64,000 nucleotides of DNA. It comes from Candidatus Kapaibacterium sp. Lineage in GTDB: Bacteria > Bacteroidota > Ignavibacteria > Kapaibacteriales > UBA4661. The notes under the pieces are model-generated. The model had not been told where the DNA came from. It did no database searches and was given only the letters and a program-made list of their open reading frames with translations. The stretch is taken from NCBI GenBank assembly GCA_004292595.1, contig RDXM01000086.1:1-64000 (forward strand). The letters are read 5' to 3'. The position numbers and the translations under genes were made by a program. Of the stretch, positions 6,717-24,720 are shown one piece after another. Each line of letters opens with the position of its first letter. Position 1 is the first letter of the stretch.

Positions 6717-9700
6717 TTACTTCACAACCTCCACACGCCGCCGCACAACGCCGCTTTGCGTTTGCAAGACAAGAAAATACGTGCCAGACGGAATCGCCTT
6801 CACATCCAACATCATGCTGTACTCGCCTACTTCGGCATAGCCCTCAGCCAGCACCGTTACTTGCTTGCCAGACATATCCACCATTGCAAAAGCGATATTG
6901 CCGTCCTCGCGCAAGGCATAGTGAATTTCTGCTACATCTTTCACAGGGTTTGGTCGCGCAATGGCGACACTATTCGGCTTTGCCGTCGTTGTAAGCCGCA
7001 CTCCGCCTGCCACGCAGGGCTTTGCCGTAAACGTGCCGTTGATAGGTGCTTCCACAAACAAATTCGGCGCACTTGCCGACCACTCCGCCTGCTCTACTTC
7101 CAGCATGGTTGTTGCCGTCGAGCCGCTCACAGAGCGACTTTTCATGGAAGTCATCACAAATTCACGCTTTGTCTCGGAAATATTTCGCAGCGTCGTGATA
7201 TCGAAGGTTGCGGCAGGAATATTCACAAAAACGCGATTCGGTACGCCAATGTACCGCCGTTGCTGGGCGCGGCGCTCGGTAGTATCAAGCATCAGTACAT
7301 TTGGGTCCATATTAAATTGCGCTCGGTATTGCAGTAAATTATCGAAGGCGCGAATGAGGTCGCTTGTTCTGCCCATATCAATTTTTCCAAAGAGTTCCAC
7401 ATCCACCAAGCCGCCCGGAGCAACAGAATCTTGCTGCTCCTTCGGACGCACACCAAAACGCATCACCACGTCGCCCTCCTTAAAAGCACGTGCTTCGGCG
7501 CGAATTTCTGCACGAACCGAATCATTATCGCCCAGCACCAGCATTCCGTTGAATTTCCGTCCCGCATTCGGCGGCGAACAGCGCACCAAAAGCAAAAGCG
7601 TGTCGAGTGCTTGGATGATAAATTCACGATTGCTCAAATAGCCTTGTACGCTGAAAATACGGTCACTGTCGCGGGTGCGGGCTTTCTGCACCGTTACCGG
7701 ACGAGGGCTGGTATTTATCAGTAATGCGCTTTTGAGCGTTGTTCCACCTGCTCGCACAATACCAAAATCTACATTGCTCAATTTCAGCGCAACGCCCGTT
7801 CCTTGCAAAATATTGACGACCGAATCAATCCGCTCAGGGCGCAAGGATTCATTGTAGCGCAAGACCGTTGTTGCCAATTTTACCCCCGTCGAGCGAGGTG
7901 CGAAGCGGACACGGACGGTCAAATACTTTTCGGCGGGAATAATTACTTGCCGAACATCGTCGAGTATCGTAAAACTCAAATTGCTATCTTCAAGCCCAAT
8001 TTCTTGCAGTGTTTGCGCCACGTTGGAGAAGTTCACCACCAATGCCTCGCCATCAACCGAATCCGCCAGCGACACACGCCCGAAATCAATCGAAGTCATT
8101 TGCATCGGTTTGTCGCCGACGCCCGTTGTGAAAAAGTCCGACGACCACTGGCTGCGCTGCCCCTCTGCGCCAATGCCGCGCACACGCCAGTAGTAGCGCG
8201 TTCCCGGACGCAGACCGCTCACCGAAAGCGTTGTCGAGGAAATTGTTGCATTGCTCGCAAGTACCGAAAAATCTGGCAAAAGCGAGAACTGCGCTTCATG
8301 CACCACCGCGCCAATGGCAGCCCGCCACGTGAGCGGCAGCGCGTAGGGCATATTGCGTCCAGCAGGATACGGAAAGACGAGACGCGGCGCAGCCACTTGA
8401 TTCGCCAACACCGCTTCATTCGTAGGTTCGGCAGTATCCACGCGAATCATGAGTGCGCGGGCAAAAAGCGTCAAATCCCGCGCCAAGCTATTGGTGATGC
8501 GGCATTCGTACACGCCAGAATTGCTTGCCAGTGCTGCCCTTGTGAGCGTAAACTCTGGTGATTCCTGCGCATCGGTAATAGCCATGCCGTTTCTGAACCA
8601 TTGATAACGATTGAATGCACCGCCAACGCTAAAATTGAGATTGATAGGGCTGCCCACCAACACAAATCGGCTGGAAGCCTCACCAACACTGTCTTGTGGG
8701 GAATAGGTAACGTTGCGCACCTGCACACTTGTTTCGATGCTTTCAAAGGTGAGCATATTCCGCTCAAGGCGCGTAGAATCAAGTGTTTGGCGGAGCGCGT
8801 TCAAACTCGGCATCGTGCGCAAACGATTTTGCGACAAGCCCAGCACACGCAAACTCGCCATTCGTGCAAGTTCGGTGGGTACATTGCCCACAAAGCTGTT
8901 GTTGTCTAATTCCAAACGCTCAAGCGAAGGAATCTGCACAAACGAGCTAGGAATAATGCCGCCGAGACGGTTGTTCCGCACCGAGAATGCACGCAACGAG
9001 CGCATTGCGCCAACATTATCCCAGAGTTCGCCCGAAAGCTGATTTTGTGCGGCATTGAAGGTTTCGAGCGTGGCGAGCGCGGGAAGCGTTTGTGGCAAGC
9101 GACCAGAGAATTGATTGTTATTCAGCAAGAGCGTTTTCATGCTGCGCGATTGCGCAATGCCATTCGGGATTGTGCCAGAAAGCTGATTGCTGCTTACGTC
9201 GAAGAGTTCTAGCTGCGTGAGTGCATTTGTTTCACTCGTTTGTTTTCCTGCAAAAACGACAAAAGTAGTAGAATCCAAACTGCGCGGAAGCTCGCCCGAT
9301 AAGCCGTTTCGCGCAACAACAAACTCGCGCAGATTCGCCAAACGGTTGATTCCTTCAGGGATTCTGCCCGTAAATTGGTTATCTTCCAAACGCAAAACTT
9401 GCAAGCGCGTAAACTGGACAATACACGGCGGAATATCACCCGTCAGCCTGTTTGACGCAACACGCAGTTCACGAAGCCCGTAATTGCGCATACTTTGCCC
9501 AAACACGGTACAGAAAACATCTGAAAGCGAGCCATCCAAGCGGTTCGAGTCCAGTTTCACAATTTCCAAACTATCCAATGTGCCAAGTTCGACGGGGATT
9601 CTGCCCGACAAGCCCGTATTTGCGAGGTTCAGCGAGCGAACGCTGCGCAAGCCCGCAACCACGCTGCCGAGCGTTCCTTGCAGCGTATTGTTCGATAAAT

Positions 9701-12700
9701 TCACCGTTTGCAGCGCGGTCATTTGCGAGAGCGCAACAATCGCATTTGTTACCGAAATTGCCGAAAAAGCACCATTTTGTGGGACGGTTGAAACATTATT
9801 GCCCGATAAATTTATGCCAATAATCCGCCCAGCATTCGCGCCGCTTTGCGCAACGGTCAAGCCGAACCAGCGAGAAAGTGCTTGCTGTGGCACGAGCCAG
9901 TTCGCGCTTGTTGTCCATGTTGCACCGTTTGTGGCGCGGTAGAAAGCAACGGCTGCCAAAGAATCTAGCTGCTGCTGCGTAAGATACGCAAAAACCCGCA
10001 TAGATTCGCCCGTTCCCGTCGTCGAGCGCACACGCACGATACCCGAAGCACCCGCCCCAACAATAGCAACGATGCGGCTTGGCGACTCAACGCGGAAACT
10101 TTGCGCGGGAGTACCGCCAAAACTTACCTCCGTTATTCCGACAAAGCCACGCCCTGTGATAGTAACCGTTGAGCCGAGTGCGCCTGTGTCGGGCGTAAAA
10201 TCTATGTTTGCAGGAATAATGGTTGTGGGAAGCAAGCGAATAAGCGTGTTTTGGAGCGTTGCCGTTCCAAAGGGCGTGGTTGCTTGCAGAGCTGCACCTG
10301 TCGCGGCAACAACGAGCGCATTGGTACTAAAGCTCAGGCGCACCTCCGTTGGCGAAATGACATCAACGCTTGCTGCGCTTACGCCGCCCAAACTCACCGT
10401 CATTCCTTGAACAAAATTTGTTCCTGTCAAGAGCAGTGTTTGTCCTACTTCGAGGCTCGTGATATTGACGGCAGTAAGTGTTGGCGGTGCAGCAATGGAA
10501 ATGGCTTGCGTGGAAAGCACAAAACAGCCACTGCCAGATTCCAAACGCAACGGTGCGGAAATGACTTGTGCTTGCGTGGAAACCCTGAGCGTGAGTGTTG
10601 TTGCGCTTTGCGAGAGAATGTGCAAGGTATTAGGGGAAATCTGCGCTGCTTGAACAACGTTCAGATTTCGTCCCGTTACGGTCAATGTGCCACCTGTACC
10701 GAGAATATCTGGCGAAATGCCATTAATGGCGGGCGTTTGCACGAGCATAACGTTCAGCACAGCCGTTCCTGCGCGGTTTTGCAGCGTTACAACGCCGTTA
10801 TCTGCATTTTGCGGAACGACGGCTTCCACCTGCCCACGCTCGTTCACGCGGAAGGATGCGGCTGGCGCATTGCCGACAAAGACTTGCTGCACGTCGGCAA
10901 TGTTATCGCCCGTGATAGTCAGCACTTGCCCCGCACACGCCGAGAGTGGCTGAATGCCGAGCAGATTCGGATATTGCACAAAATTGAACACGCCAAGCGA
11001 TTCCCCACTGCCGAAATTATTGGTCAGCACAATCGTTCCCGACGTTCCAGCAGCAACAACAAGCGAAACTTGATTCGTAGAATTTACCGTGAAGCTCTGC
11101 ACAGGAACACCCGCAATGGCAGCCGCCGTTAAACTCGTCAAGCCTGTACCCCGCACCGTTACTACTGTTCCCGTCGCACCTGTGCTGGGCGAAAAGGAAA
11201 TAATTTGCGCCTCAAGCGGCTCGCGCAGCAAGGTCAGCGTTACGTTTGTTGCCGAAAGTGCCGCCGAACTTTCGCTCACAAGGCGCAGCGTTACTTGCGT
11301 GGAAACGGCTGTTTCTGGCGCATTCAGCCATGCAACACGGAGATTCGTGAATACGCCTGTTGCCGTATTCGCAAGACCAGAGAGCAACGTTGGAGTGCCA
11401 CTCAGCGTGAAATTTCCTTCTTGCCCTTGTGTGTTGAAAGCGCGAAGGCGCACGATTGCATTCGTGGCGGCAAGCTCGTTCCAGCCGTTCCACGCACCAA
11501 AAGCAAGGTTGAATGGTCGTCCGCTTGCCGAGAGGAGCTGCCCTTGATTGAACGCACCAAAATTCACACCTTGCGTTCCCGTGCTGGAGCTTTGCGAAAA
11601 CGCCAACGCAAGCGGGAATGCGGGGTCGGCAATCACCGTTACCGTAATTTGCGTTGCATTCAACAGCCCGACAAAGGTTGGCGAAACCACAATCACTGCC
11701 GTTGTTACGCCACCGCGCACGGGCGCGTTTCGCCAGACAAACGTCGCCACCGTACTGATACTGCTTGCATTGTTGATAGTGCCTTGCGAAGAGCCAATGA
11801 TACTGAATTGCGCGTTGCCGCCAGCAGCCGCTTGAATGCTGTATTGCAGCGTGGCAGAGGTATTGGAAAGATTTGTTTTTCCCAAAAACGAGCCAATGGT
11901 GAAGGGCGTTTGTGCGCGGCTGACGACGACGGGAGTGTTGGTATTGAAAAGATTGATAAATCCTGAGTTAGTGAGGCTGAATGCTAAACCAGCATTGCCT
12001 TGATTCATCATCACGGAGGTTGTATTGGACGCAGAATTTGCACTCACAAAATCAAGGTCACCATCGCCATCAAGGTCGGCAAGTGCTACGCCCAAGGGCT
12101 GCATTCCCAAGCCGTAGGGCGAGCCGCTTGCGGTTTGGTTCAAGACTCCTGTTCCGTCATTTTTCCATATCGTTGCTGTATTTGCGCCATTGTTGATAGA
12201 AACAAGGTCGAGGTCGCCGTCACCGTCCACATCGCCCAACCCAACATCACTGGGGCTTGTTCCAACGGCGTAGGTGCCAGAAAGCGTGAATCCGCCCATG
12301 AGATTGCTGTAGATAAGCGCGTTGTCGGGCGTTGTGGTAACAAGAGCAATATCGTTATCGCCGTCGTTGTCAATGTCGCCCGCAGCAATGCCTTCGGGCG
12401 TGGAAGGCGTAGCAATGGGCGTTCCGAGCATGAGGCTGAGATTGCCGTTGCCGTCGTTGAGCGCGATTGCCAAGCCGCTTGTGCCGCCGTTGTTGGCGGC
12501 TGCTACGTCGAGGTCGCCGTCGTTATCGAAGTCGCTCAAAGCAAGCGCAGACGGCGTTCCTGCAATGCCCGTCGCTGCGCCAATGCTGAAGGCATTTGCA
12601 TCAATGTTGTTGTTCACAAGGCGAATTTGGCTTGCGGCGCGGTCGGCAAGCACGAGGTCGAGGTCGCCGTCGGCGTTCATATCGCCCCAAGCAATATCCA

Positions 12701-15700
12701 CCATATTCCCACCAACAGCGAGCGGAAAGCCCATCATCGTGGTAAATGCGCCCATGCCGTTATTGAGCAAGACGCTTACGTTTCCTCCGCCCGCGACGGC
12801 AATATCGAGGTCGCCGTCGTTATCGGCATCGCCGAGTGCTATTGCGACAGGGCTTCCAATCGTTGGAATGGTAGTGCTATTTGCATTAAAATTACCCGTG
12901 CCGTCGTTCAAACGCCGCACAATTCCTATTCCGGTAGCCGCAAGCATATCCACACGCCCGTCGCCGTTTACGTCGCCCAGCGCGACATCCTGCGGGTTCG
13001 TGCCGCTTGCGTAGGGCGAAAATTCTTGATTACCAAAAATAGCAGGTCCAACGCCCGCCCGTGTGCGGTAGCTATACACGAAGGGGCGCACATTCACGCG
13101 AGCGAGCGATGCTTGCGCAGAGGTCATCGTTACCATGACTTCTTCGCCATTCAAGAAGCGGCGAGCGGGATTGAAGGTGGCTGTTGTGGCTGCCATTGCG
13201 TAGGTCCACGCGCCGCCGCTTGCGATATTGCGCTGCCCCGTCATCATGCCAAAAATGCGGATGGGACCTTGCGCCGAGCCGATAGCGGTGTAGGTTGCGG
13301 CGGTAATCTGCTCGGTAAATTGCCAGGTCATTGCCGTTTGGTTTGGTGCAGCGTTGAGATTGCGCTGCGGTGAAATTGCGCGGGTGTAGCTTGGCGCTCC
13401 GCAATCGGTGGCACCGTTGCAGACAAGGCGCGGCTGCGTGGCATTCAGGAGAATCTGCACGGTGCTGGTCACGCCTTGATGAGCGACGGCAACGTCCAAA
13501 TCACCATCGCCATCAACATCAGCCAAGGCAAAGCCGCGTGGGTCTGCGAGCGTTCCAAAGGGAGCGTTGGCGGCATTGCCAAAAGCACCAGCACCATTGC
13601 CAAGCATCACCGTCAGTGCGCCGGCTTGCCCAGCCACAGGTGCGCTTGTGGCAACAATATCAAGGTTCGTGTCACCATTCACATCCGTAAACACAGCGTG
13701 TTGCGGGCTTACGCTGATAGGAAACATTGCGGCAATGGTGGAAAAATTCCCAGAAGCAATGCCGTTGTTTGTGCGCAGAACGAGCGAACCAGTGGCAAGC
13801 GTAACAATCATATCAAGGTCGGTGTCGTTGTCAATATCGCCCATATCCACCGAAATCGCACCTGCTCCTGCGTAGGGAGAGCCAACTGCCGTTCCATTGA
13901 AATTGCCCAAGCCGTCGTTGAGGCGCACCGTTACGCCGCCAACGCTTTGTGCAATCACCATATCAAGGTCGCCATCGTTATCAACGTCGGCAAGGCGCAG
14001 AAAACCTTGCCCTGTGCCAGTGGGAAAGGTTGCGGAGTTCGTCGCAAACACGCCAGAACCATTATTGTAGCGAATCACAGCACCGCCGCTATTTTCGATA
14101 GAGACAATATCAAGGTCGGCATCGGCATCCACGTCGCCAAGTGCGATAGATTGTGGGTTCGCGCCCGTTGCGTACGTTACGGGCGTGTTTAATTGACCCG
14201 TTCCGAGCGTATTCAAAAAGACAGCAATACCATTTGCGCCACCACCAGAATTGAGGGCAACAGCATCTAGTCGCCCATCGTTATTCACATCAGCCGTAAG
14301 AACCTGCACGGGAAATGTGCCAACCGTTGCACGGGTAGAATTGGCAACGAGCGGCGTGAACGCGCCGGTGTTGTCGCCGAGTGCCGTTACTATCGTATTA
14401 TTGAACTGATTCACCGCAACCCAATCAATGACATTATCGGCATTAAAATCACCAAAGGCGATACTGCGCGGTCCGGCTCCGGCAGTATAAAGAAAGTTTA
14501 GCGAACCAGAGCGCGGATAAAACTGCGCTGGACCGCTTGTGGGGCGGGCGCGGAAGCTATACACGTAGGGGCGCACAGCAATGCCGCTTGGGGATTGGGC
14601 TTGCGTTACACTCACCATGATCTGCTCTCCAGCAAATAAGGCTCTTCCAGAGGTAAGCGTAGCGGTGGTGATAGCAGCATTGAACGCCCACGAACCGAGC
14701 GCGGAATTCAGCGGGGTTCGGCTGGCAGCCATATTCCCAAAAACGCGGATAGAGCCGCCAGCACCGCTTGGCGCAGGCGGGTTTTGCGGGAAGGATGCTG
14801 TTGCTGTTACTGAGGCGGTGGTCATTGGCTCGGTGAATTGCCATGTAAAAAGTGAGCCTGCGACGGCAGTATTGACATTGCGTTGCGGAAAGATATTGGG
14901 CGTAAAGGTTGGCGGACCACAATCTACCGCGCTATTACAGACAAAACGCGGCTGCGTGGCATTCAGCCAGATTTGGAGAGTGTTGTCGGCGGCTATCAAA
15001 ATATCCAAATCGCCGTCGTTGTCCACGTCGGCAATGGCTTGGTTCAGATTTGCCGTGCCAACTTGATTCGGCGCGGAAAGCGCGGGAAATGTTCCCGAAT
15101 TATTGCCCAACCCCACCACAAAACTACCTGGAGTGCGCTGAAGAACCGTAATATCTTGCCGAGCATCGCCATCGAAATCACCAAGCAAAGGGCGGTTTGA
15201 AGTGGTCGGGATAGTGAGCGTTGCTGCGGCTGGAAAAATGGTGGGCATTCCCGTATTCACAAAGATATTCACATTCGCATTTGGACCGCCGACAACCGCA
15301 TCAATGCGACTATCGTTGTTAATATCCATAAGCTGGATATTGGTTGGATTGGTGATAGTTGTCGGATATGGCGAACCAGCAGCTTGGACATCAAAATTCC
15401 CTGTGCCGCTATTCAAACGCAGGGAAACGGAATTTGCAGAACCGTTGGTAATGACCCAATCCAAATCGCCATCGTTATCCATGTCCGCAAGGGCAGATTC
15501 TTCGCGCCCGCCACCACCTGGCTGCGTATAACGCTGTTCGCTTCCCGATATATTGCCATTGCCAGGATTGAAAAAGACACCGACTTGATTGGTTGCGTTG
15601 TAGGTTACAGCAAGGTCTAAAGCACCGTTACCGTCGGCATCGCCGACTGCCAAGCCGCGCACACCAGCAAATGAGGCGGTTATGGGCGAACCAGTCATTT

Positions 15701-18700
15701 GCGTAGGAAACGTACCTGTCCCGCTATTTTGGAAAATGCGAATTTGGGCAGAACCTATCGCATCGGTATTGATAATATCCGTAAAGCCGTCGTTATTCAT
15801 ATCTGCCAGCACCACGCGCCCGTTGGCGGGAGTGCCGAAGGCACCCGTCACCGTCGCACCCGCCGTAAAGGTGCCGTTACCATTCCCCAAATATATCCGT
15901 AGTGTGGTATTATCTTCGGAGGTTACGAAGTCTATGCGCCCGTCGTTGTTGAAGTCTGCCGATTGTACAAAGGAGGCAGCATTTGGGCGCGGAATGGGCG
16001 ATTGGAAATGTTGGAAAAACGTCGCTGGTCCCGTGCCGGCTTTTGTCCAGAACTGGCGCACCGTTCCTGTGGTCATCGGGATGGTATTCGCCACGCCTGG
16101 CGTACCTTGTATGTATGTGCTGGTCGAGGCGATAAACTCTACTTTCTCGCCTGGATAATAGCGAATAGCGGAAGATCCAAGAGGATTTGCGGTAAACGTG
16201 GCAGAATTGATAGGTGGTGCGGGAGACGACCACGAGCCGCCGCCAGCACGCGAGCGTCCGCCCGTCATATTGCCAAAAACGCGGAGCGGTCCGGTTGGTG
16301 GAAGTGAAGCAGTGCTGGTGGTGACATTTTGGTTAAAGATGGTCGTAATTGCCACAGGAAGCGCGACGCTACTTGCATTGACGAGCGGCGAGGTAGCTTG
16401 TACTTTGAGTTCGGGCTCGTGGTTGAAGAGAATGGCGGTACGTCTGCCAGTACCGAGAGGAATTCCCAAATCAAGGTCGCCATCGCCATCAAGGTCTGCC
16501 ATAGCAGGAAATAGGCGAGTTGCTGCAACGATATTTGTGCTTTCTACCAATGGGCTTGAGTTTGTCAACGTGAAGACAGCAGCATTATTTCCCTTAAAAT
16601 GCAGAACCTTGGCATCAATGGCATTCGACTTAAAGGAAACAATATCTAAGGCGCCATCACCATCAAAATCACCGACCAATGGTGCATTTCCACTGCTACC
16701 AGTAGCATATGTTCCCAAAACAGTAAACTGTCCATTGCCGATACCTGAATTACGAAGAACAGTCAAATCTGCGGTATTATCTGAGGCAGCAACGAGGTCA
16801 AGATACCCATCGTTATTAAAATCACCCGCAGCAAGTTCTGTGACATTGGCAATCGCATATTGATATGCGGGTGTGGGTGCTGCAAGCAGAGAGTTGAGTC
16901 CGCCTACTGCTCCCTGCCCTAACCAAATTTCTACATTCGTATTATTTGCTGTTACTACATCCATGTCTCCATCATTATCAACATCGGCAGCAAGAATACT
17001 TTTGGCAGTTACTAAACCAGCATTAAAGACTTGGGTAAAAGCAGTACCATTGCCATTATTCAAATATACTCTCAACACGCCACCTGCATCTGCTATCGTA
17101 GCAATATCCAAATCTCCATCGCCATCAAAATCTGCTGGAGCAAGTCGAATAAGACCTACCAAGCCAGGATTAAAAGAAACCAACGTAGTGCCAAAGGCAG
17201 CAGAGATATTCCGACGAACTTGGATATTACCTGCATTATCTATGAATGCAATATCAACAGCACCATCGCTATCAAAATCACCCGTTATACAATGCGCAAT
17301 AAATCCTCCAGCATAAATATTTGTTGCGGGATCGGTAAACTGCGTCGGTGCAGTACCAGTTTGCAAGCGCATATTTAAGCCATTGCTACTGGATTGTATC
17401 ATATCAATTCTACCATTATTATCAAAATCCCCAAAGACAACACCGCCTGCAAACGCAGCATCGTCCCATCTGCGCGAGTCCACAAACCGCCCCGTTCCGC
17501 CGCTCGGTGCGACCGTGAAAGCGTACACCGTCGGCGAAGTAGAAAATACCTGCCCTCCAGGCGTACTTGCTTGCGCATTCGTTACCGTTACCATCACCGT
17601 TTCGCCAGCGCGGAAGGGGTTTCCAGTGGGTGGAATATATTCGGCGGTGTTTGCGGCAGCAAGGTAATTCCATGTTCCTTGCGCAGCAGGCGTAGAGCGG
17701 TGTCCCGTCATACTTCCGTGAATGCGGATTGCGCCTGGCGTTACTGCTAAGGGCGAAGGTGGCAGCACGTTAGGAAAGGAGGCAGTTGCTGAGGTTACGG
17801 CTTGGTCGAAGCGCACACGAAGCGGAAATGCACCGAATACTTGGGTGTGGCTATTGCGCTGGGGAACAAGATCGCGTTGATACGAAGCGGCATTACCGGG
17901 CGGAACAAGAGGATTGATGCGGGGCGGACGGGCATTTATCAAGATGGAAATGGAATTTGCACCCCAATTTGTGGTAACAAAATCTATATCGCCGTCGTTA
18001 TCAAAATCTCCTGCTGCGCTCCAAGAGCGAGGTGCAGCACCAGTGGCAGCATTTGAGAAGGGTACAAACACACCCGTGCCATTACCCGTAAACACAGAAA
18101 TATTATTGGAGCCTTCGTTTGTCGTGATAAGGTCTGAGAACATATCGCCGTTGTAATTACCAAATACGACGGATGAAGGATTTGTGCCTGTTGCAAGGGA
18201 TGAACTTGGTGCGGTGGGATAAAAATTTACAGGACCCGTTGCATTATTGATAAAGATAGAAACCTGATTTGCGCTATACTGCGTAACAGCAAAGTCAGGG
18301 AAAGCATCTCCGCTCAAATCACCTATTTCTACATCGTAGGGATCGGTCAGCGTGATGGTTTGTGCAATGGAAAAATTTCCCAAACCATCATTGCGAAGAA
18401 TGGTTATCAGGTTTCCTGCAGGGTGAACGAGAATTGCATCAAGGTCGCTGTCGCGGTCAATGTCACCACACTTAATAGACAAAGCAGCACCTGCGGTTGG
18501 CACGGCGGCAAGTGGGGTAAAAACAGCACTGCCATTATTGAGAAATACTCGCACCGAGCCGCCATTATTCGAGGCAAGCACATCCAACGCTCCGTCGCCG
18601 TTGAAATCACCGACGCAGAGGCTGTAATTCAGTCCGCCTGTATTGAGCGAAATTGCACTACCAAATGCGCCAGTACCCATTCCTAAAAAAACTCGCACAT

Positions 18701-21700
18701 CGGGACTGCAGCCGATAGCTATGTCCACATTGCCATCGTTATTGAAATCACCCGTCGCAACATTCCCTTGAAGAGCAGGAACGCCTACGGGCGCAAGTGG
18801 GGTAAAAACGCCTCCTGCTCCGCCCAAGAACACGGCATAACCCCTTGTGCCGCCTTCGTTAGTAACAACAATATCAAGTCGTCCATCATTATTAAAATCT
18901 GCTGTTGCCGCCGCACGAGGACTTGTCCCAACCGTAAAACGTTGCTGTTCCACAAAAAATGCCTGTCCGCCCGTTACATTCGTCCGAAATTGCCGCACGT
19001 ATCCGCCGAGATTGGTCAGCCCTGCACTTGTAACAGGCACAAAACGGTCATTCTTGACGGCATTGGTCTGAAAGTTAGGAATGCTAACACTCACAAGCTC
19101 GTTTGGATGAAACCGATTTGCCGACGATGCTCCTGTAAGATTATTCGGCGTAAATTCTGGCATATTTGTTCCCACACCCATCCACATTCCGCCCGCACCA
19201 ATGCGGCTGCGCCCGCCCGTCATGTTGCCGAAAATGCGTATTGGTCCGCTTCCACCAGAAAGTGCATCTACAAGCGTTGCCGTTCCAGTGGTCATTGCGC
19301 TTGAAAACGTCTGGCTAATAAGGACACTTGAACGATCGACATTCTGAGCATGGATGGTCGGTGCAAGGGCGGTTGTTACTGGTGGCTGTTCATTGCGCAG
19401 GACTGCCACGTAGGGAAAGGCTGCACCGATGTTGTAGCCAGCAAGCGCGTCCAAATCGCCGTCTTGGTCAATGTCGCAGAGCGCAAGCACGTGTGCGCTG
19501 GGGTTCACCAGACTTGTGCTACCGCTATTGCTTGCGCCTGGGGCAAACGCCCCGCCACCAATATTGCGAAACCACGTCAGGTGCGATGCGCTGCCTGCTG
19601 CCTGCGGATTTGTAGCGATAATATCAAGGCTTCCATTTCCATCAATATCACCAAAATCTAGCCCGCCTGTTGTTGCGGCAAATCCATTTGGCAATGAAAA
19701 AGACACTGGCGCGATAAATGCCGTTCCAGCATTATTCAGTGCAAGATGCACGGACGTAGCACCAGCATTTTGAACAAGAGCAGCCACATCAGTAAAGCCA
19801 TCATTATTCAAGTCGCCGACAGCAATATGAGAATATGCACCGATGGGATTGAAGGGCGCAAGACCTTGATTAAACCTGCCTCCGCCGTCGTTGATGTAAA
19901 TAAATGCCGAATTAGGAGTCCCCAGTGCAAGGTCTAATGCGCCATCGCGGTTAAAATCGCCTGTGGCGATTGCGCTCGGCACTCCGGGCAGTGCTGTGGT
20001 CGAATGCAGGGACAAACTAAAAGTGGGAAAGTTATTCCGATATATTTGCAATTCATCGGGAGCAGTGCGAATAAGCGCAACATCTATATCGCCGTCGCCA
20101 TCGAAATCGCCCGTCGAAATTTTTTGCCCACCCGTTACGCCAATACCTGTGGCGAAAGGAATTGCACTCAAGTTTCCAGGCGTACTGGTGTTGCGGTGGA
20201 TATAAACCTGTCCTGCGTCAATGTACACCCAATCTGGCAAGCCGTCATTGCTCATATCGGCAGCTTTCAGGTCGAGAATTGCGGTCGAACCTACATTCAG
20301 CCCCTCATTCATGGTTGCGGTTTGGGCAATATTACCACGCCCGTAGTTGCGGCGCACTATTACGGCATTTGCACCAACATTGGACGAAGCAGCAATATCA
20401 ATATACCCGTCGCCATCGTAATCTGCTGGAGCGATTGCTGTTACGTTGCCCAGCATAGCACCATTGTTTATTGTTGCGTAGGTGGACAGCACAAAGTTTA
20501 CGCCGCCCGCAGGCGCAGTTGTGGCTGTTCGGAAACTGCCGACAAAGGGAATTGCTCGCCCTTGAGGTGCGCCAGTGATGTTATTCAGAAATGGCTTATT
20601 TTCTGGATTCGTACTCACGCCATCGCCCAGCGTTGCGCCTGTCGTTATCGTATATTCAATGCGCTCGCCGCGCTGGTAGGGCACCGTCGGCGTGAAACTC
20701 GGCATCGTCCCGCCCGCGTACGTTCCCACCACTCTCAGCCCCGTCATTCCGCCAAAAGAACGGAAGTTGGTGGCGGTGGGAAGGTTCACTGCTTGGCTGA
20801 AGGTTGGTACGATTGCTTGCGTGGGTGTACCGTTATTTGCATCAAGTGGTGGAGCGACGGCGGTAAGTGTGGGGAGATTCTGATTAAAAATGAGAACACG
20901 ATTTCCAGATTGCGAAACGATAAGTCTCCCTGCATGAAAAGCGAGTGCGCTTGGTGTCTGTCCAATAGCACGAGAGGTAATGCCAGCATTTGTCTGAAAA
21001 TCATACTGCCCTAAAACAAAATTGGCAGGTTGATTACCCGTAATTATGCTTGCAGCATTACTAAATACCAGAACGCGGAAGTTATTTCTGTCCGCAACGT
21101 ATAAATCTTGTGTTGCAGGGTCAATGGTAATCCCAAGCGGTAGATTCATGCGGTTTTGAAGGAGACCAGTTCCACTACCCAAAAAATTAACTTGACCAAT
21201 CACAACATTCGCATTATTAACCGTAGGGGGTGGCATCAACACCATATGAGCAGCATTAAACCGCACTACTCTATTATTGGTGCGGTCAGCAACGTATAAC
21301 GCTCCACCTGTACCGATGGCAAGTCCAGCAGGGTTATTGAATGTATTGGGTGTTGTTCCGCTAACGGCAGTAGTGTATGACGTTTGCCCCAAAACTCTTT
21401 CTGCCATTGCTCCCACAACAGGCAGCACAGCAAAATCGTATCGAAGGACACGATTATTACCGAAATCGCTGATGTATAATTTACTATTGGCAGCATCAAA
21501 GGCAATTCCGTGTGGTGCTGAAAGACCATCTTGGGTTGTCGCAGCAGCATTGGAAGTAAAATTCACTTGACCAATAACATAATCGGCGGTAGGATTGGCT
21601 GTAGCAGTATGAGCAGCTGGATACCGTACAACACGATGATTTTGGGAATCGACAATCCACAGGTTGCTATTTTCTACTATGATATTGAGTGGCTCATTCA

Positions 21701-22055
21701 ACGTTTGTGATGTGACTGTACCGCCACGATTCGGTAGGAATCCCATTAAATCCATCTGCCCAAATGCAACCTCTGGTGTTGGTTGATTCGAGGTAATTGG
21801 TAGATAAGCATACCGCAGTACTCGATGGTTGCTGCGGTCGGCGACATAGATTTTGTTGTTCGGAACGTCAATTGCAACGCCATCAGCAAAGTTTAGTCCT
21901 AACGTTATGTTTGGATTATTGGCACCATTGCTAATGAAATCTGGTTGCCCGATAACCCACGTCGCAGGCTGCCCATTCACCCACGTTTGCGCAGACAGCA
22001 CCGTAGGCGCAAGGACGCAGACACAGCATAACAGAAGTGTAGAAAAGCGTTTCAT
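6717..22055 (-). CDS. Giant 1: 5112-aa secreted multi-propeller protein with T9SS sorting domain
   Basis: The signal peptide is residues 1-23 (ends L-S-A-Q). Domains in order: six NHL repeats (~23-392); six tandem units, each a Big_5-like Ig domain with a V/I-F-G-N/M-M-T-G-x-R motif (~125-150 aa) plus a block of exactly seven FG-GAP/VCBS repeats (~350-370 aa), ~393-3357; two unrecognised beta domains (~3358-3612); five IPT/TIG domains (~3613-4020); a leucine-rich repeat block with 'NLSNNxLxGxIP' units (~4024-4440); an Ig-like domain (~4455-4540, Y-Q-W ... Y-E-C-R-I); an FN3-like domain (~4552-4650); ASH/HYDIN-like domains (~4650-4860); a possible cohesin-like domain (~4860-5000); and a C-terminal sorting domain (~5028-5112, 'RPNPVKDVAEI ... 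GTYFLVL'). The FG-GAP repeats carry DxDxDG calcium loops. Probably a surface or secreted adhesin-like protein; ligand unknown. The frame is intact throughout. Confidence 0.93.
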   Translation of the reverse strand: MKRFSTLLLCCVCVLAPTVLSAQTWVNGQPATWVIGQPDFISNGANNPNITLGLNFADGVAIDVPNNKIYVADRSNHRVLRYAYLPITSNQPTPEVAFGQMDLMGFLPNRGGTVTSQTLNEPLNIIVENSNLWIVDSQNHRVVRYPAAHTATANPTADYVIGQVNFTSNAAATTQDGLSAPHGIAFDAANSKLYISDFGNNRVLRYDFAVLPVVGAMAERVLGQTSYTTAVSGTTPNTFNNPAGLAIGTGGALYVADRTNNRVVRFNAAHMVLMPPPTVNNANVVIGQVNFLGSGTGLLQNRMNLPLGITIDPATQDLYVADRNNFRVLVFSNAASIITGNQPANFVLGQYDFQTNAGITSRAIGQTPSALAFHAGRLIVSQSGNRVLIFNQNLPTLTAVAPPLDANNGTPTQAIVPTFSQAVNLPTATNFRSFGGMTGLRVVGTYAGGTMPSFTPTVPYQRGERIEYTITTGATLGDGVSTNPENKPFLNNITGAPQGRAIPFVGSFRTATTAPAGGVNFVLSTYATINNGAMLGNVTAIAPADYDGDGYIDIAASSNVGANAVIVRRNYGRGNIAQTATMNEGLNVGSTAILDLKAADMSNDGLPDWVYIDAGQVYIHRNTSTPGNLSAIPFATGIGVTGGQKISTGDFDGDGDIDVALIRTAPDELQIYRNNFPTFSLSLHSTTALPGVPSAIATGDFNRDGALDLALGTPNSAFIYINDGGGRFNQGLAPFNPIGAYSHIAVGDLNNDGFTDVAALVQNAGATSVHLALNNAGTAFIAPVSFSLPNGFAATTGGLDFGDIDGNGSLDIIATNPQAAGSASHLTWFRNIGGGAFAPGASNSGSTSLVNPSAHVLALCDIDQDGDLDALAGYNIGAAFPYVAVLRNEQPPVTTALAPTIHAQNVDRSSVLISQTFSSAMTTGTATLVDALSGGSGPIRIFGNMTGGRSRIGAGGMWMGVGTNMPEFTPNNLTGASSANRFHPNELVSVSIPNFQTNAVKNDRFVPVTSAGLTNLGGYVRQFRTNVTGGQAFFVEQQRFTVGTSPRAAATADFNNDGRLDIVVTNEGGTRGYAVFLGGAGGVFTPLAPVGVPALQGNVATGDFNNDGNVDIAIGCSPDVRVFLGMGTGAFGSAISLNTGGLNYSLCVGDFNGDGALDVLASNNGGSVRVFLNNGSAVFTPLAAVPTAGAALSIKCGDIDRDSDLDAILVHPAGNLITILRNDGLGNFSIAQTITLTDPYDVEIGDLSGDAFPDFAVTQYSANQVSIFINNATGPVNFYPTAPSSSLATGTNPSSVVFGNYNGDMFSDLITTNEGSNNISVFTGNGTGVFVPFSNAATGAAPRSWSAAGDFDNDGDIDFVTTNWGANSISILINARPPRINPLVPPGNAASYQRDLVPQRNSHTQVFGAFPLRVRFDQAVTSATASFPNVLPPSPLAVTPGAIRIHGSMTGHRSTPAAQGTWNYLAAANTAEYIPPTGNPFRAGETVMVTVTNAQASTPGGQVFSTSPTVYAFTVAPSGGTGRFVDSRRWDDAAFAGGVVFGDFDNNGRIDMIQSSSNGLNMRLQTGTAPTQFTDPATNIYAGGFIAHCITGDFDSDGAVDIAFIDNAGNIQVRRNISAAFGTTLVSFNPGLVGLIRLAPADFDGDGDLDIATIADAGGVLRVYLNNGNGTAFTQVFNAGLVTAKSILAADVDNDGDMDVVTANNTNVEIWLGQGAVGGLNSLLAAPTPAYQYAIANVTELAAGDFNNDGYLDLVAASDNTADLTVLRNSGIGNGQFTVLGTYATGSSGNAPLVGDFDGDGALDIVSFKSNAIDAKVLHFKGNNAAVFTLTNSSPLVESTNIVAATRLFPAMADLDGDGDLDLGIPLGTGRRTAILFNHEPELKVQATSPLVNASSVALPVAITTIFNQNVTTSTASLPPTGPLRVFGNMTGGRSRAGGGSWSSPAPPINSATFTANPLGSSAIRYYPGEKVEFIASTSTYIQGTPGVANTIPMTTGTVRQFWTKAGTGPATFFQHFQSPIPRPNAASFVQSADFNNDGRIDFVTSEDNTTLRIYLGNGNGTFTAGATVTGAFGTPANGRVVLADMNNDGFTDIINTDAIGSAQIRIFQNSGTGTFPTQMTGSPITASFAGVRGLAVGDADGNGALDLAVTYNATNQVGVFFNPGNGNISGSEQRYTQPGGGGREESALADMDNDGDLDWVITNGSANSVSLRLNSGTGNFDVQAAGSPYPTTITNPTNIQLMDINNDSRIDAVVGGPNANVNIFVNTGMPTIFPAAATLTIPTTSNRPLLGDFDGDARQDITVLQRTPGSFVVGLGNNSGTFPALSAPNQVGTANLNQAIADVDNDGDLDILIAADNTLQIWLNATQPRFVCNSAVDCGPPTFTPNIFPQRNVNTAVAGSLFTWQFTEPMTTASVTATASFPQNPPAPSGAGGSIRVFGNMAASRTPLNSALGSWAFNAAITTATLTSGRALFAGEQIMVSVTQAQSPSGIAVRPYVYSFRARPTSGPAQFYPRSGSLNFLYTAGAGPRSIAFGDFNADNVIDWVAVNQFNNTIVTALGDNTGAFTPLVANSTRATVGTFPVQVLTADVNNDGRLDAVALNSGGGANGIAVFLNTLGTGQLNTPVTYATGANPQSIALGDVDADADLDIVSIENSGGAVIRYNNGSGVFATNSATFPTGTGQGFLRLADVDNDGDLDMVIAQSVGGVTVRLNDGLGNFNGTAVGSPYAGAGAISVDMGDIDNDTDLDMIVTLATGSLVLRTNNGIASGNFSTIAAMFPISVSPQHAVFTDVNGDTNLDIVATSAPVAGQAGALTVMLGNGAGAFGNAANAPFGTLADPRGFALADVDGDGDLDVAVAHQGVTSTVQILLNATQPRLVCNGATDCGAPSYTRAISPQRNLNAAPNQTAMTWQFTEQITAATYTAIGSAQGPIRIFGMMTGQRNIASGGAWTYAMAATTATFNPARRFLNGEEVMVTMTSAQASLARVNVRPFVYSYRTRAGVGPAIFGNQEFSPYASGTNPQDVALGDVNGDGRVDMLAATGIGIVRRLNDGTGNFNANSTTIPTIGSPVAIALGDADNDGDLDIAVAGGGNVSVLLNNGMGAFTTMMGFPLAVGGNMVDIAWGDMNADGDLDLVLADRAASQIRLVNNNIDANAFSIGAATGIAGTPSALALSDFDNDGDLDVAAANNGGTSGLAIALNDGNGNLSLMLGTPIATPSTPEGIAAGDIDNDGDNDIALVTTTPDNALIYSNLMGGFTLSGTYAVGTSPSDVGLGDVDGDGDLDLVSINNGANTATIWKNDGTGVLNQTASGSPYGLGMQPLGVALADLDGDGDLDFVSANSASNTTSVMMNQGNAGLAFSLTNSGFINLFNTNTPVVVSRAQTPFTIGSFLGKTNLSNTSATLQYSIQAAAGGNAQFSIIGSSQGTINNASSISTVATFVWRNAPVRGGVTTAVIVVSPTFVGLLNATQITVTVIADPAFPLALAFSQSSSTGTQGVNFGAFNQGQLLSASGRPFNLAFGAWNGWNELAATNAIVRLRAFNTQGQEGNFTLSGTPTLLSGLANTATGVFTNLRVAWLNAPETAVSTQVTLRLVSESSAALSATNVTLTLLREPLEAQIISFSPSTGATGTVVTVRGTGLTSLTAAAIAGVPVQSFTVNSTNQVSLVVAAGTSGTIVLTNNFGSGESLGVFNFVQYPNLLGIQPLSACAGQVLTITGDNIADVQQVFVGNAPAASFRVNERGQVEAVVPQNADNGVVTLQNRAGTAVLNVMLVQTPAINGISPDILGTGGTLTVTGRNLNVVQAAQISPNTLHILSQSATTLTLRVSTQAQVISAPLRLESGSGCFVLSTQAISIAAPPTLTAVNITSLEVGQTLLLTGTNFVQGMTVSLGGVSAASVDVISPTEVRLSFSTNALVVAATGAALQATTPFGTATLQNTLIRLLPTTIIPANIDFTPDTGALGSTVTITGRGFVGITEVSFGGTPAQSFRVESPSRIVAIVGAGASGIVRVRSTTGTGESMRVFAYLTQQQLDSLAAVAFYRATNGATWTTSANWLVPQQALSRWFGLTVAQSGANAGRIIGINLSGNNVSTVPQNGAFSAISVTNAIVALSQMTALQTVNLSNNTLQGTLGSVVAGLRSVRSLNLANTGLSGRIPVELGTLDSLEIVKLDSNRLDGSLSDVFCTVFGQSMRNYGLRELRVASNRLTGDIPPCIVQFTRLQVLRLEDNQFTGRIPEGINRLANLREFVVARNGLSGELPRSLDSTTFVVFAGKQTSETNALTQLELFDVSSNQLSGTIPNGIAQSRSMKTLLLNNNQFSGRLPQTLPALATLETFNAAQNQLSGELWDNVGAMRSLRAFSVRNNRLGGIIPSSFVQIPSLERLELDNNSFVGNVPTELARMASLRVLGLSQNRLRTMPSLNALRQTLDSTRLERNMLTFESIETSVQVRNVTYSPQDSVGEASSRFVLVGSPINLNFSVGGAFNRYQWFRNGMAITDAQESPEFTLTRAALASNSGVYECRITNSLARDLTLFARALMIRVDTAEPTNEAVLANQVAAPRLVFPYPAGRNMPYALPLTWRAAIGAVVHEAQFSLLPDFSVLASNATISSTTLSVSGLRPGTRYYWRVRGIGAEGQRSQWSSDFFTTGVGDKPMQMTSIDFGRVSLADSVDGEALVVNFSNVAQTLQEIGLEDSNLSFTILDDVRQVIIPAEKYLTVRVRFAPRSTGVKLATTVLRYNESLRPERIDSVVNILQGTGVALKLSNVDFGIVRAGGTTLKSALLINTSPRPVTVQKARTRDSDRIFSVQGYLSNREFIIQALDTLLLLVRCSPPNAGRKFNGMLVLGDNDSVRAEIRAEARAFKEGDVVMRFGVRPKEQQDSVAPGGLVDVELFGKIDMGRTSDLIRAFDNLLQYRAQFNMDPNVLMLDTTERRAQQRRYIGVPNRVFVNIPAATFDITTLRNISETKREFVMTSMKSRSVSGSTATTMLEVEQAEWSASAPNLFVEAPINGTFTAKPCVAGGVRLTTTAKPNSVAIARPNPVKDVAEIHYALREDGNIAFAMVDMSGKQVTVLAEGYAEVGEYSMMLDVKAIPSGTYFLVLQTQSGVVRRRVEVVK
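11985..20880 (-). repeat. Six tandem [Big_5-like + seven FG-GAP repeat] units in giant 1
   Basis: The propeller blocks lie at about 19395-20500, 17935-18975, 16415-17500, 14955-16045, 13445-14537 and 11985-13053. Each holds seven loops of the form D-x-D/N-x-D/N-G-x-x-D, such as 'DFDGDGDIDVA' and 'DLDGDGDLDFV', 42 in all. The intervening Big_5-like domains each contain a 'FGNMTGGRS'-like motif. Seven FG-GAP repeats are what the integrin-alpha type propeller needs. Confidence 0.88.
20880..21990 (-). repeat. Six NHL repeats (one six-bladed propeller) at the head of giant 1
   Basis: Six copies of a pattern like G-x-A-x-D ... L-Y-V-A-D-x-x-N-x-R-V-L/V-R/V-x, separated by about 55-65 residues. Examples are 'KIYVADRSNHRVLRY', 'ALYVADRTNNRVVRF' and 'DLYVADRNNFRVLVF'. 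Six NHL units make one closed propeller in the known family. Confidence 0.85.
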
Positions 22056-22113: not shown

Positions 22114-23001
22114 TTAGAGCATAATAATACTGCTTTCGCTCAAGCCCGTTAGTTTGGCAATCTCCGTCGGCGGCATTCCTGATTGTTTCATATTTTTTGC
22201 AACGAGAAGAATGCCTTTTTCCATGCCTTTTTCCATGCCTTTTTCCATGCCTTTTTCCATGCCTCTCGCTTCCCCCAGTATGGTTGCTTGCTCAATCGCA
22301 TAATCCATGGTGTTCTTCAAATCGCGGTAGATTTTGAGCGATTGCTCGTAGGAATCACGCTGCGCATCATTAAACTGCGCTAACTCTGCTGTGTGAAAAG
22401 CGTGTTCAAACAGCGAAGATTGCAAGGGCGCGGGAATCTCCTGAAAGTCAGGTAAATGCTTGAGAAAATACAGCCATTTATCAGTATTTGTCCAAAGCTC
22501 TGCTTCGGTTTTCGTAAAATTTGGCATCTCAAGATAGACAAATGTTAGCTTGTCGTAGAAGACCCGATTTTGCTGGTTCTTGAGCTGAACGGTATGCAGA
22601 TATTCCGTACTTCCCTTATCTTCATCAAAAACAAAATCCAATACGCCAACGCAATAGACCGCCGCCAACTCAAAGTTCCAATTCCCACGCTCGCCCTGCT
22701 CTCGAATGGGAAAGGTGGAATAATACACACTGCGTTCTTTGAAATAATTCTGCTTTGCTTTTTGCAATTCCACGATGAAGCGTTCGCCCGTATCGCTCGT
22801 ACAGGTAATATCCATGATAGCGCGGCGTTCTGTAGCACTGCTGCTCATGTACTCATTACGCGTATATTGCAAATCTCTTATACGATGCTTCTCGGGTAAG
22901 AGGGCATTCAAAAAGTCTATAAGCAAGGATTTCTGCGACTCTTCACCAAAGAGCTTTTTGAAACCGAAATCGGTAAAGGGATTGAGATAACGATCTTTCA
23001 T
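22114..23001 (-). CDS. Rpn-family recombination-promoting nuclease / putative transposase (PD-(D/E)XK)
   Basis: 295 aa. The N-terminus ('DRYLNPFTDFGFKKLFGEE') and the core D64 ... E78-L-Q80 fit the Rpn/PDDEXK_2 family, with the variant E-x-Q in place of E-x-K. RpnA of E. coli is a DNA endonuclease that promotes RecA-independent recombination; activity here is inferred from family only. Near the C-terminus, residues ~246-263 are four copies of G-M-E-K encoded by a near-perfect 12-bp tandem repeat (22211-22264), followed by a short HTH-like tail ('PPTEIAKLTGLSESSI'). The gene lies 58 bases upstream of giant 1 on the same strand, so read-through into giant 1 is possible. Confidence 0.88.
   Translation of the reverse strand: MKDRYLNPFTDFGFKKLFGEESQKSLLIDFLNALLPEKHRIRDLQYTRNEYMSSSATERRAIMDITCTSDTGERFIVELQKAKQNYFKERSVYYSTFPIREQGERGNWNFELAAVYCVGVLDFVFDEDKGSTEYLHTVQLKNQQNRVFYDKLTFVYLEMPNFTKTEAELWTNTDKWLYFLKHLPDFQEIPAPLQSSLFEHAFHTAELAQFNDAQRDSYEQSLKIYRDLKNTMDYAIEQATILGEARGMEKGMEKGMEKGMEKGILLVAKNMKQSGMPPTEIAKLTGLSESSIIML
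22211..22264 (-). repeat. 12-bp tandem repeat (x4.5) within the Rpn gene
   Basis: On the plus strand ATGCCTTTTTCC is repeated four times plus a half copy, encoding G-M-E-K units. The period is a multiple of three, so copy-number change alters only the linker length and keeps the frame. Confidence 0.95.
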
Positions 23002-24457: not shown

Positions 24458-24720
24458 TTAATGTCTATTCATACTACTTCAGAGCATGATGCGCTTCCAA
24501 CGAATAAGTAGTATATTGCTCTTTGAAAGGACAGTACTATTTATGCTGCTTATGCGTCTTTTTGAATGTTTATCCGTATAATCTTTATTTTCTCCTTTTT
24601 GCGTGTTTTATGAAAATTTTACCACCCACTCTTCACTTGCAGACCCCACGAATACTTGCTGCATTCTGTTCTGGCGTTATCAAAGCCTTTCGTATTTATA
24701 CCTTTTCTGTAAATCCTCAT
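24458..24720. other. Leader region of giant 2
   Basis: The giant 2 frame is open from 24523, but the first 66 codons lack a plausible signal peptide in the right place and are AT-rich. I treat this as 5' leader. ATGs at 24523 and 24610 are alternative starts. No Shine-Dalgarno sequence is seen before any of them. Confidence 0.5.

Follow-up and report, generated by a model that had tools for sequence, protein, structure and literature searches.

A giant protein of Candidatus Kapaibacterium carrying a string of seven-bladed propellers that appear to be exchanged as whole cassettes between conserved linkers

Giant 1 is one of four giant genes in the window analysed here, i.e. the whole stretch of 64,000 nucleotides from Candidatus Kapaibacterium sp., and the best reading of the sequence comparisons presented below is that whole propellers, rings resembling those of human integrins, are exchanged between such genes, and between species, while the blade count stays at seven, probably altering what the cell adheres to or recognises. 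With a probability of about 0.6, giant 1 is itself taken to be a T9SS-exported, calcium-stabilised and multivalent protein with a presumed ligand-recognising or adhesive function, the heads of which have been diversified by recombination between the linkers.

Architecture of giant 1

Giant 1 encodes, in order, a Sec signal, six NHL repeats, six blocks of seven FG-GAP/VCBS repeats, TIG, LRR and Ig/FN3/ASH domains and a T9SS C-terminal signal. Its size is matched by a full-length syntenic orthologue in genome G005, and the span 11985–21990, singled out in an earlier sequence-only reading of the window, corresponds to residues 22–3357. The features are as follows, "orthologue" being that in G005:

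6717..22055 (-): whole giant 1 gene, 5,112 aa; one uninterrupted ORF with an ATG start
21990..22055 (-): Sec signal peptide, residues 1–22, predicted cleavage between A and Q; read from the translation
20877..21989 (-): six NHL repeats, residues 23–393, expected six-bladed propeller; Pfam NHL E = 3e-28, repeats by eye
20463..20876 (-): linker 1, Big_5-like; Pfam Big_5 20.9 bits, under the cut-off; homologous to the other linkers
19395..20462 (-): FG-GAP propeller 1, seven repeats; loop and HMM counts, AF2 of moderate confidence in a combined model
18939..19394 (-): linker 2; 67% identity to linker 2 of the orthologue
17928..18938 (-): FG-GAP propeller 2, seven repeats, apparently replaced relative to the orthologue; AF2 at ~pLDDT 90, 37% identity, equal to background
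17469..17927 (-): linker 3; 84% identity to the orthologue
16416..17468 (-): FG-GAP propeller 3, seven repeats; loop and HMM counts
15996..16415 (-): linker 4; 89% identity to the orthologue
14949..15995 (-): FG-GAP propeller 4, seven repeats; blades 1–3 diverged, blades 4–7 83–93% identical to the orthologue
14490..14948 (-): linker 5; 64% identity to the orthologue
13440..14489 (-): FG-GAP propeller 5, seven repeats, apparently replaced relative to the orthologue; 36% identity, equal to background
13014..13439 (-): linker 6; 87% identity to the orthologue
11997..13013 (-): FG-GAP propeller 6, seven repeats, conserved; 87% identity to the orthologue
8766..11996 (-): stalk part 1, an uncharacterised stretch, IPT/TIG and LRR; Pfam TIG 2e-19, LRR_8 2e-22
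6966..8765 (-): stalk part 2, Ig, FN3 and HYDIN/ASH-like domains; Pfam
6720..6965 (-): T9SS type A C-terminal sorting domain; PF18962 31.9 bits, TIGR04183 30.5 bits

The Q following the predicted cleavage site agrees with the Bacteroidetes 'Q-rule', as described in the available part of PMC5837995. Both cut-offs for the T9SS sorting domain (27 bits for PF18962 and 23 bits for TIGR04183) are exceeded by giant 1, and the T9SS translocon SprA is encoded in the same genome (811.7 bits); judged by the sorting domain together with SprA, giant 1 would be a T9SS cargo, presumably located on the cell surface. A Pfam scan of giant 1 gave E-values of 1e-99 and 5e-107 for FG-GAP_3/FG-GAP and detected no integrin alpha leg domains, the C-terminus being the T9SS signal. 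At the level of predicted domains the resemblance to integrin alpha is confined to the propellers, and on this basis giant 1 does not qualify as an integrin alpha subunit.

The six NHL repeats counted in the sequence-only reading can be recognised by eye, but a regular expression finds five and only four are over the Pfam domain threshold. Membership in the NHL family is certain and the repeat count leads one to expect a six-bladed ring; AF2 modelling of this part gave pLDDT values of mostly 25–55, the NHL rows of giant 2, misaligned to the FG-GAP part, having been dropped from the alignment. The six linkers, of 120–150 residues with one before each propeller, are clearly homologous to each other. 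They had been described as Big_5-like domains preceding every block, a description that holds weakly for linker 1, which matches Big_5 below threshold (20.9 versus 23.6 bits), and not for the others, since none of the six is over the Pfam cut-off and linkers 2–6 lack any Big_5 match.

Propellers apparently replaced in comparison with the orthologue

The syntenic orthologue, G005.C3, has the same Rpn gene upstream (78% identity) and short matching DNA downstream, and sits inside a 141-kb contig. When comparing the two proteins, propeller 6, the region following it and the stalk were found to be 87–88% identical. The identities of propellers 1–6 were 53, 37, 54, 73, 36 and 87% and those of linkers 1–6 were 63, 67, 84, 89, 64 and 87%, the background, taken from random propellers within the family, being 37% (5–95%: 32–46%). 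In propellers 2 and 5, then, the two proteins resemble each other no more than unrelated propellers do. Of the 4-fold sites, 86 of 135 (0.64) differ in the low-identity propellers as compared with 570 of 1442 (0.40) in the conserved segments (Fisher p = 8e-8), and diverged 4-fold sites point to inserted DNA of older ancestry, not to amino-acid selection alone.

A search for the relatives of the replaced propellers placed propeller 2 of giant 1 nearest to propeller 1 of G001.C446 (52%). Its best relatives belong to other genes, in G001, G007, G004 and G006, and the orthologue is not among them, while propeller 2 of the orthologue is closest to propeller 1 of G009.C158 (56%) and propeller 3 of G006.C118 (63%). 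In propeller 4 the identity to the orthologue shifts from 50–67% to 83–93% near residue 2221, i.e. within the ring, and exchange can thus apparently also occur between blades in register. The swapping of propeller cassettes had been missed in the sequence-only reading.

Apparent cassette exchange elsewhere in the family

Comparisons of other genes in the family gave several further mosaics. Between G006.C118 and G004.C55, linker 1 and propellers 1 and 4 are 95–98% identical with a 4-fold divergence of 0.03–0.12, the values for the two propellers being 95–96% and 0.11–0.12, whereas propellers 2, 3 and 5 show 35–45% identity and a 4-fold divergence of 0.63–0.75. The linkers of G004.C3 and G007.C34 are 72–81% identical and their propellers 2 and 3 34–38%, and G001.C446 differs from G006.C81 by one whole module of linker plus propeller. 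Of all linker pairs with at least 80% identity, 46 out of 61 flank propellers that are less than 45% identical. The tracts of DNA identity in the linkers mostly end 3–21 residues ahead of blade 1; G000.C167 and G004.C55 share 94.5% identity over a 1,520-bp stretch that spans the N-terminal head and the linker and ends 9 residues before two unrelated propellers. Five gene pairs were tested for raised 4-fold divergence in the diverged propellers, which was significant in four (p from 1e-5 to 2e-25) and not in the fifth, G004.C8/G007.C69 (p = 0.30).

If propellers were not exchanged at all but evolved unusually quickly, by positive or relaxed selection, next to a constrained stalk and constrained linkers, a gradient of identities could result, and many orthologous propellers do lie at intermediate values (53–78%). 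This explanation is nevertheless held to be improbable: amino-acid selection does not cause the raised 4-fold divergence found in four of the five pairs, the nearest relatives of propellers lie in other genes and some propellers are 95–96% identical within diverged genes. More improbable still is an origin of the mosaic in misassembly, with chimeric repeats arising in metagenome bins. The family assemblies are fragmented, with up to 680 contigs, repeats of this kind assemble badly and several giants stop at contig edges; however, the replaced propellers are in frame, complete and seven-bladed and are not copies of propellers in the same genome, the orthologue lies within its long contig next to the same upstream gene, and the mosaic pattern is repeated in independent genome pairs.

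Blade count and calcium loops

The spacing of the repeats in giant 1, ~47–58 residues within blocks and ~180–193 between blocks, makes six blocks of seven unmistakable. The sequence-only reading had based this count on the calcium loop, but the literal motif D-x-[DN]-x-[DN]-G-x-x-D is present in only 32 of the 42 repeats (6, 4, 7, 5, 3 and 7 per block), so that it is the seven repeats in each of the six blocks and not the seven literal loops that stand. With a relaxed motif (G relaxed, S allowed at position 3) 41 of the 42 repeats match, and the remaining loop, at residue 1300, is N-first (NYNGDMFSD). The figure of up to 42 calcium sites should be seen as an upper bound, ten loops being off consensus, and for the loops of giant 1 calcium occupancy is putative. 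No other part of the blade is as conserved as this loop, which is also the only slow-evolving region between vertically related propellers.

A repeat HMM built from giant 1 counted 7, 7, 7, 7, 7 and 7 repeats in its blocks and, when run on 22 giants of this bacterial family, encoded by the genome to which the window belongs and by related ones, exactly seven in 101 out of 101 intact and clearly countable blocks, which upholds the earlier count for all six blocks and extends it to the family. In the raw output 98 blocks had seven repeats and three had eight, each of the latter due to one extra linker hit with a score of at most 1 and without a loop. Singletons (score <2) and blocks of two or three repeats at contig ends were set aside, and one block of the orthologue that reads 4+2 around a degenerate fifth blade falls outside the 101.

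Blades at equal positions in different blocks of giant 1 are more alike than others (0 of 2,000 permutations), as would be expected from duplication of complete rings, and structural context may contribute. The median identity between the blades of one propeller is 0.34 overall and 0.27–0.35 in giant 1 but 0.84 in G006.C118.3 and G006.C43b.2, and on this likeness propeller 3 of G006.C118 (L050) and propeller 2 of G006.C43b (L055) are identified as the products of very recent single-blade amplification, halted at seven. Freshly amplified propellers, with blades 60–84% identical to each other, still hold seven blades, and since the same is true for all of the 101 blocks the blade number is taken to be selected. 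Random repeat growth, already argued against in the sequence-only reading, was ruled out as the origin of the count by the strict sevens and the position-specific blade similarity; growth by single-blade amplification does occur in relatives, ending at seven.

Predicted structure

AlphaFold2 (AF2) was run with 14 aligned sequences on module 2, the loops of which are the most degenerate after those of block 5. The seven repeats of the model close into a ring of four-stranded blades, with ~pLDDT 90 for the seven blades and <50 for most of the linker, and the N-terminal strand 144–151 completes blade 7 in a 3+1 'velcro' closure. Foldseek searches with this model, for which TMq is limited by the unmodelled linker, gave full seven-bladed rings, with LGI1 EPTP (TMt 0.82), BBS1 (0.80) and CRTAC1 among the top matches. 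When sequence profiles were compared, the proteins of solved structure that came nearest were CRTAC1, secreted esterases, PVL lectin, Tc-toxin B subunits (a match confined to their propeller part) and integrin alpha-V. A second AF2 model, covering the NHL part and module 1, was of moderate confidence for propeller 1.

Ring closure is thereby supported as a prediction for propeller 2, with moderate confidence for propeller 1 and by homology for propellers 3–6. The rule of seven, the blade-position similarity and, for module 2, the AF2 closure and the full-ring PDB matches together favour six closed seven-bladed propellers of the integrin-alpha/VCBS type, as the sequence-only reading had proposed. 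Long arrays of one repeat family can form solenoids, but an open solenoid has no support here and is extremely unlikely, as the repeats come strictly in sevens between linkers and the AF2 ring is closed by a velcro strand.

Neighbouring genes and distribution

Three more giants are found in the window, at 24523..40383 (+), 41159..54589 (-) and 56950..63981 (-), encoding 5,286, 4,476 and at least 2,343 aa, respectively. Their C-terminal 900–1,700 residues are common with giant 1 (26–30% identity, E down to 1e-108) while their N-terminal heads differ, consisting of NHL/TIG arrays, DUF5122/Rax2-like and other propeller-like repeats; from these alignments the four giants are classified as a cluster of head-swapped paralogues. 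In the whole genome at least nine loci carry a stalk of the giant 1 type.

A gene for an Rpn family recombination-promoting nuclease/putative transposase (TIGR01784, PF12784) is located at 22114..23001 (-), ~60 bp upstream of giant 1. It is one of three Rpn genes in the genome and, as mentioned, is conserved at 78% upstream of the orthologue. No Rpn gene was found in the (short) flanks of the other giants, only at the giant 1 locus and at that of its orthologue, and a role for Rpn in propeller exchange is to be regarded as a lead only.

The linker profile was found in all ten genomes of the family. Outside it, in an even sample of the class, the profile matched mostly open frames of ~180–2,900 aa, one to seven per genome, and tandem blocks of seven blades were also present in L034, L035 and L036, which come from different families within the order. 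Looking for the same arrangement in other genomes, as the sequence-only reading had suggested, gave a full-length orthologue in G005; a scan of genome contigs did not find the architecture and gave distant relatives only, mostly single-propeller or CRTAC1/ASPIC-like.

Some of the proteins encountered differ in layout. L055 (G006:C43) is an open frame of 7,595 aa, of which the part examined contains ten or more seven-bladed FG-GAP propellers. In L053 (G004:C6), a frame of 5,276 aa, the NHL part of giant 1 was matched by three tandem segments, so that NHL propellers appear to take the place of FG-GAP ones in its string. L004, L006, L011, L017, L019 and L020 are distant proteins of ~1,100–1,250 aa from Bacteroidota/Rhodothermales. 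They often lie in tandem, and their repeat pattern is interrupted (~5+1+1 then 5–6), probably representing CRTAC1/ASPIC-like rings with insertions.

Discussion

In the mechanism proposed here the conserved C-terminal stalk (TIG-LRR-Ig/FN3/ASH plus sorting signal) would present one NHL and six closed FG-GAP/VCBS propellers, each an independent head for ligand binding; the ligands would probably be glycans or proteins, present on surfaces or carried by other cells. Near-identical, Ig-like linkers would serve as homology arms between which a donor propeller from another giant gene or species takes the place of the resident one, at times over just a stretch of blades, leaving the stalk, the reading frame and the seven-blade count undisturbed; a crossover or conversion spanning two linkers could swap the ring cleanly and in frame. 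Candidate arms of ~300–540 bp at 80–94% identity occur several times per gene and in several genes per genome, an anatomy that points to exchange by homologous recombination within the linkers. Gene conversion homogenising the linkers probably acts as well, and could contribute to the contrast between linkers and propellers without any movement of propellers. Silent donor cassettes of the vlsE/pilS type were not found, all FG-GAP_3 matches in the (incomplete) assembly being located in four long open frames.

VCBS-like propellers are typically tied to carbohydrate or protein recognition (PMC9218822), and the most economical reading is that of a multivalent surface protein for recognition or adhesion, in which the heads would be renewed while the anchor and the export signal are kept fixed. 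The main functional rival, considered unlikely, is that the propellers form an inert calcium-stiffened spacer or surface coat, e.g. against grazers or phage, and that their variation is a means of escape. Such a coat would agree with a C-terminal stalk that is common to four consecutive giants with different N-terminal heads, and with the lack of a variable ligand face, since the substitutions between vertically related propellers are not concentrated on one face and consequently give no site-level sign of ligand-driven selection. Against it are the usual tie of VCBS-like propellers to recognition and the retention of closed seven-blade rings throughout, since in a spacer blade numbers other than seven could be tolerated. 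Recognition or adhesion with exchanged heads is preferred; its extension to a dedicated combinatorial recognition system, in which the conserved linkers have evolved as arms for recombination, paralogues and species trade propellers as interchangeable binding heads and the adjacent Rpn aids the exchange, is put forward as a speculative proposal.

Several components of this picture are already known. Bacterial integrin-type propellers of seven repeats, including proteins with 14 repeats (two propellers), were described by Chouhan et al. 2011 (PMC3192720), and giant 1 resembles these in its seven FG-GAP repeats and one calcium loop per blade but differs by six FG-GAP propellers (at least ten in G006.C43), homologous linkers, a T9SS giant as carrier and the evidence for cassette exchange. 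With the propellers of the VCBS superfamily (Pereira and Lupas 2021, PMC8023676), where new propellers arise from amplification of single blades (PMC9218822), the family shares the DxDxDG AB-loop and ongoing blade amplification, although the repetitive VCBS propellers in those studies vary in blade number within a lineage while here seven is found in 101 of 101 blocks. CRTAC1/ASPIC, PVL lectin and integrin alpha-V (PDB) have the same fold and metal loop as the propellers of giant 1, but as a single propeller, in other domain contexts and with a remote sequence relation.

Diversification of T9SS surface proteins by domain exchange is described, in the available part of PMC5266723, for Porphyromonas gingivalis, in which adhesin domains are rearranged and alleles exchanged between strains; there Cleaved-adhesin domains are involved, within one species, and here propellers. 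The Giant1-5 of Apilactobacillus kunkeei (PMC12863079) are, like the giants in the window, consecutive giant genes with signs of recombination, encoding extracellular proteins of 3,000–8,000 aa with uneven dS and recombination tracts. They consist of helical repeats and beta-solenoids, the word 'propeller' is absent from the main text of that paper and, in the passages available, the tracts are not tied to domain cassettes. A propeller string with a fixed blade number and cassette exchange between conserved linkers was not found in the open-licence literature searched.

If the combinatorial proposal were true, a bacterial population would gain a library of surface specificities. Already on the main reading a toroidal repeat domain is the unit of exchange, and its repeat number does not change whether blades are amplified or cassettes swapped, which makes the question of what sets blade number testable in one bacterial family. 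Should the heads bind different ligands, the giants would provide a naturally occurring set of integrin-like binding modules, mounted on linkers that can be interchanged.
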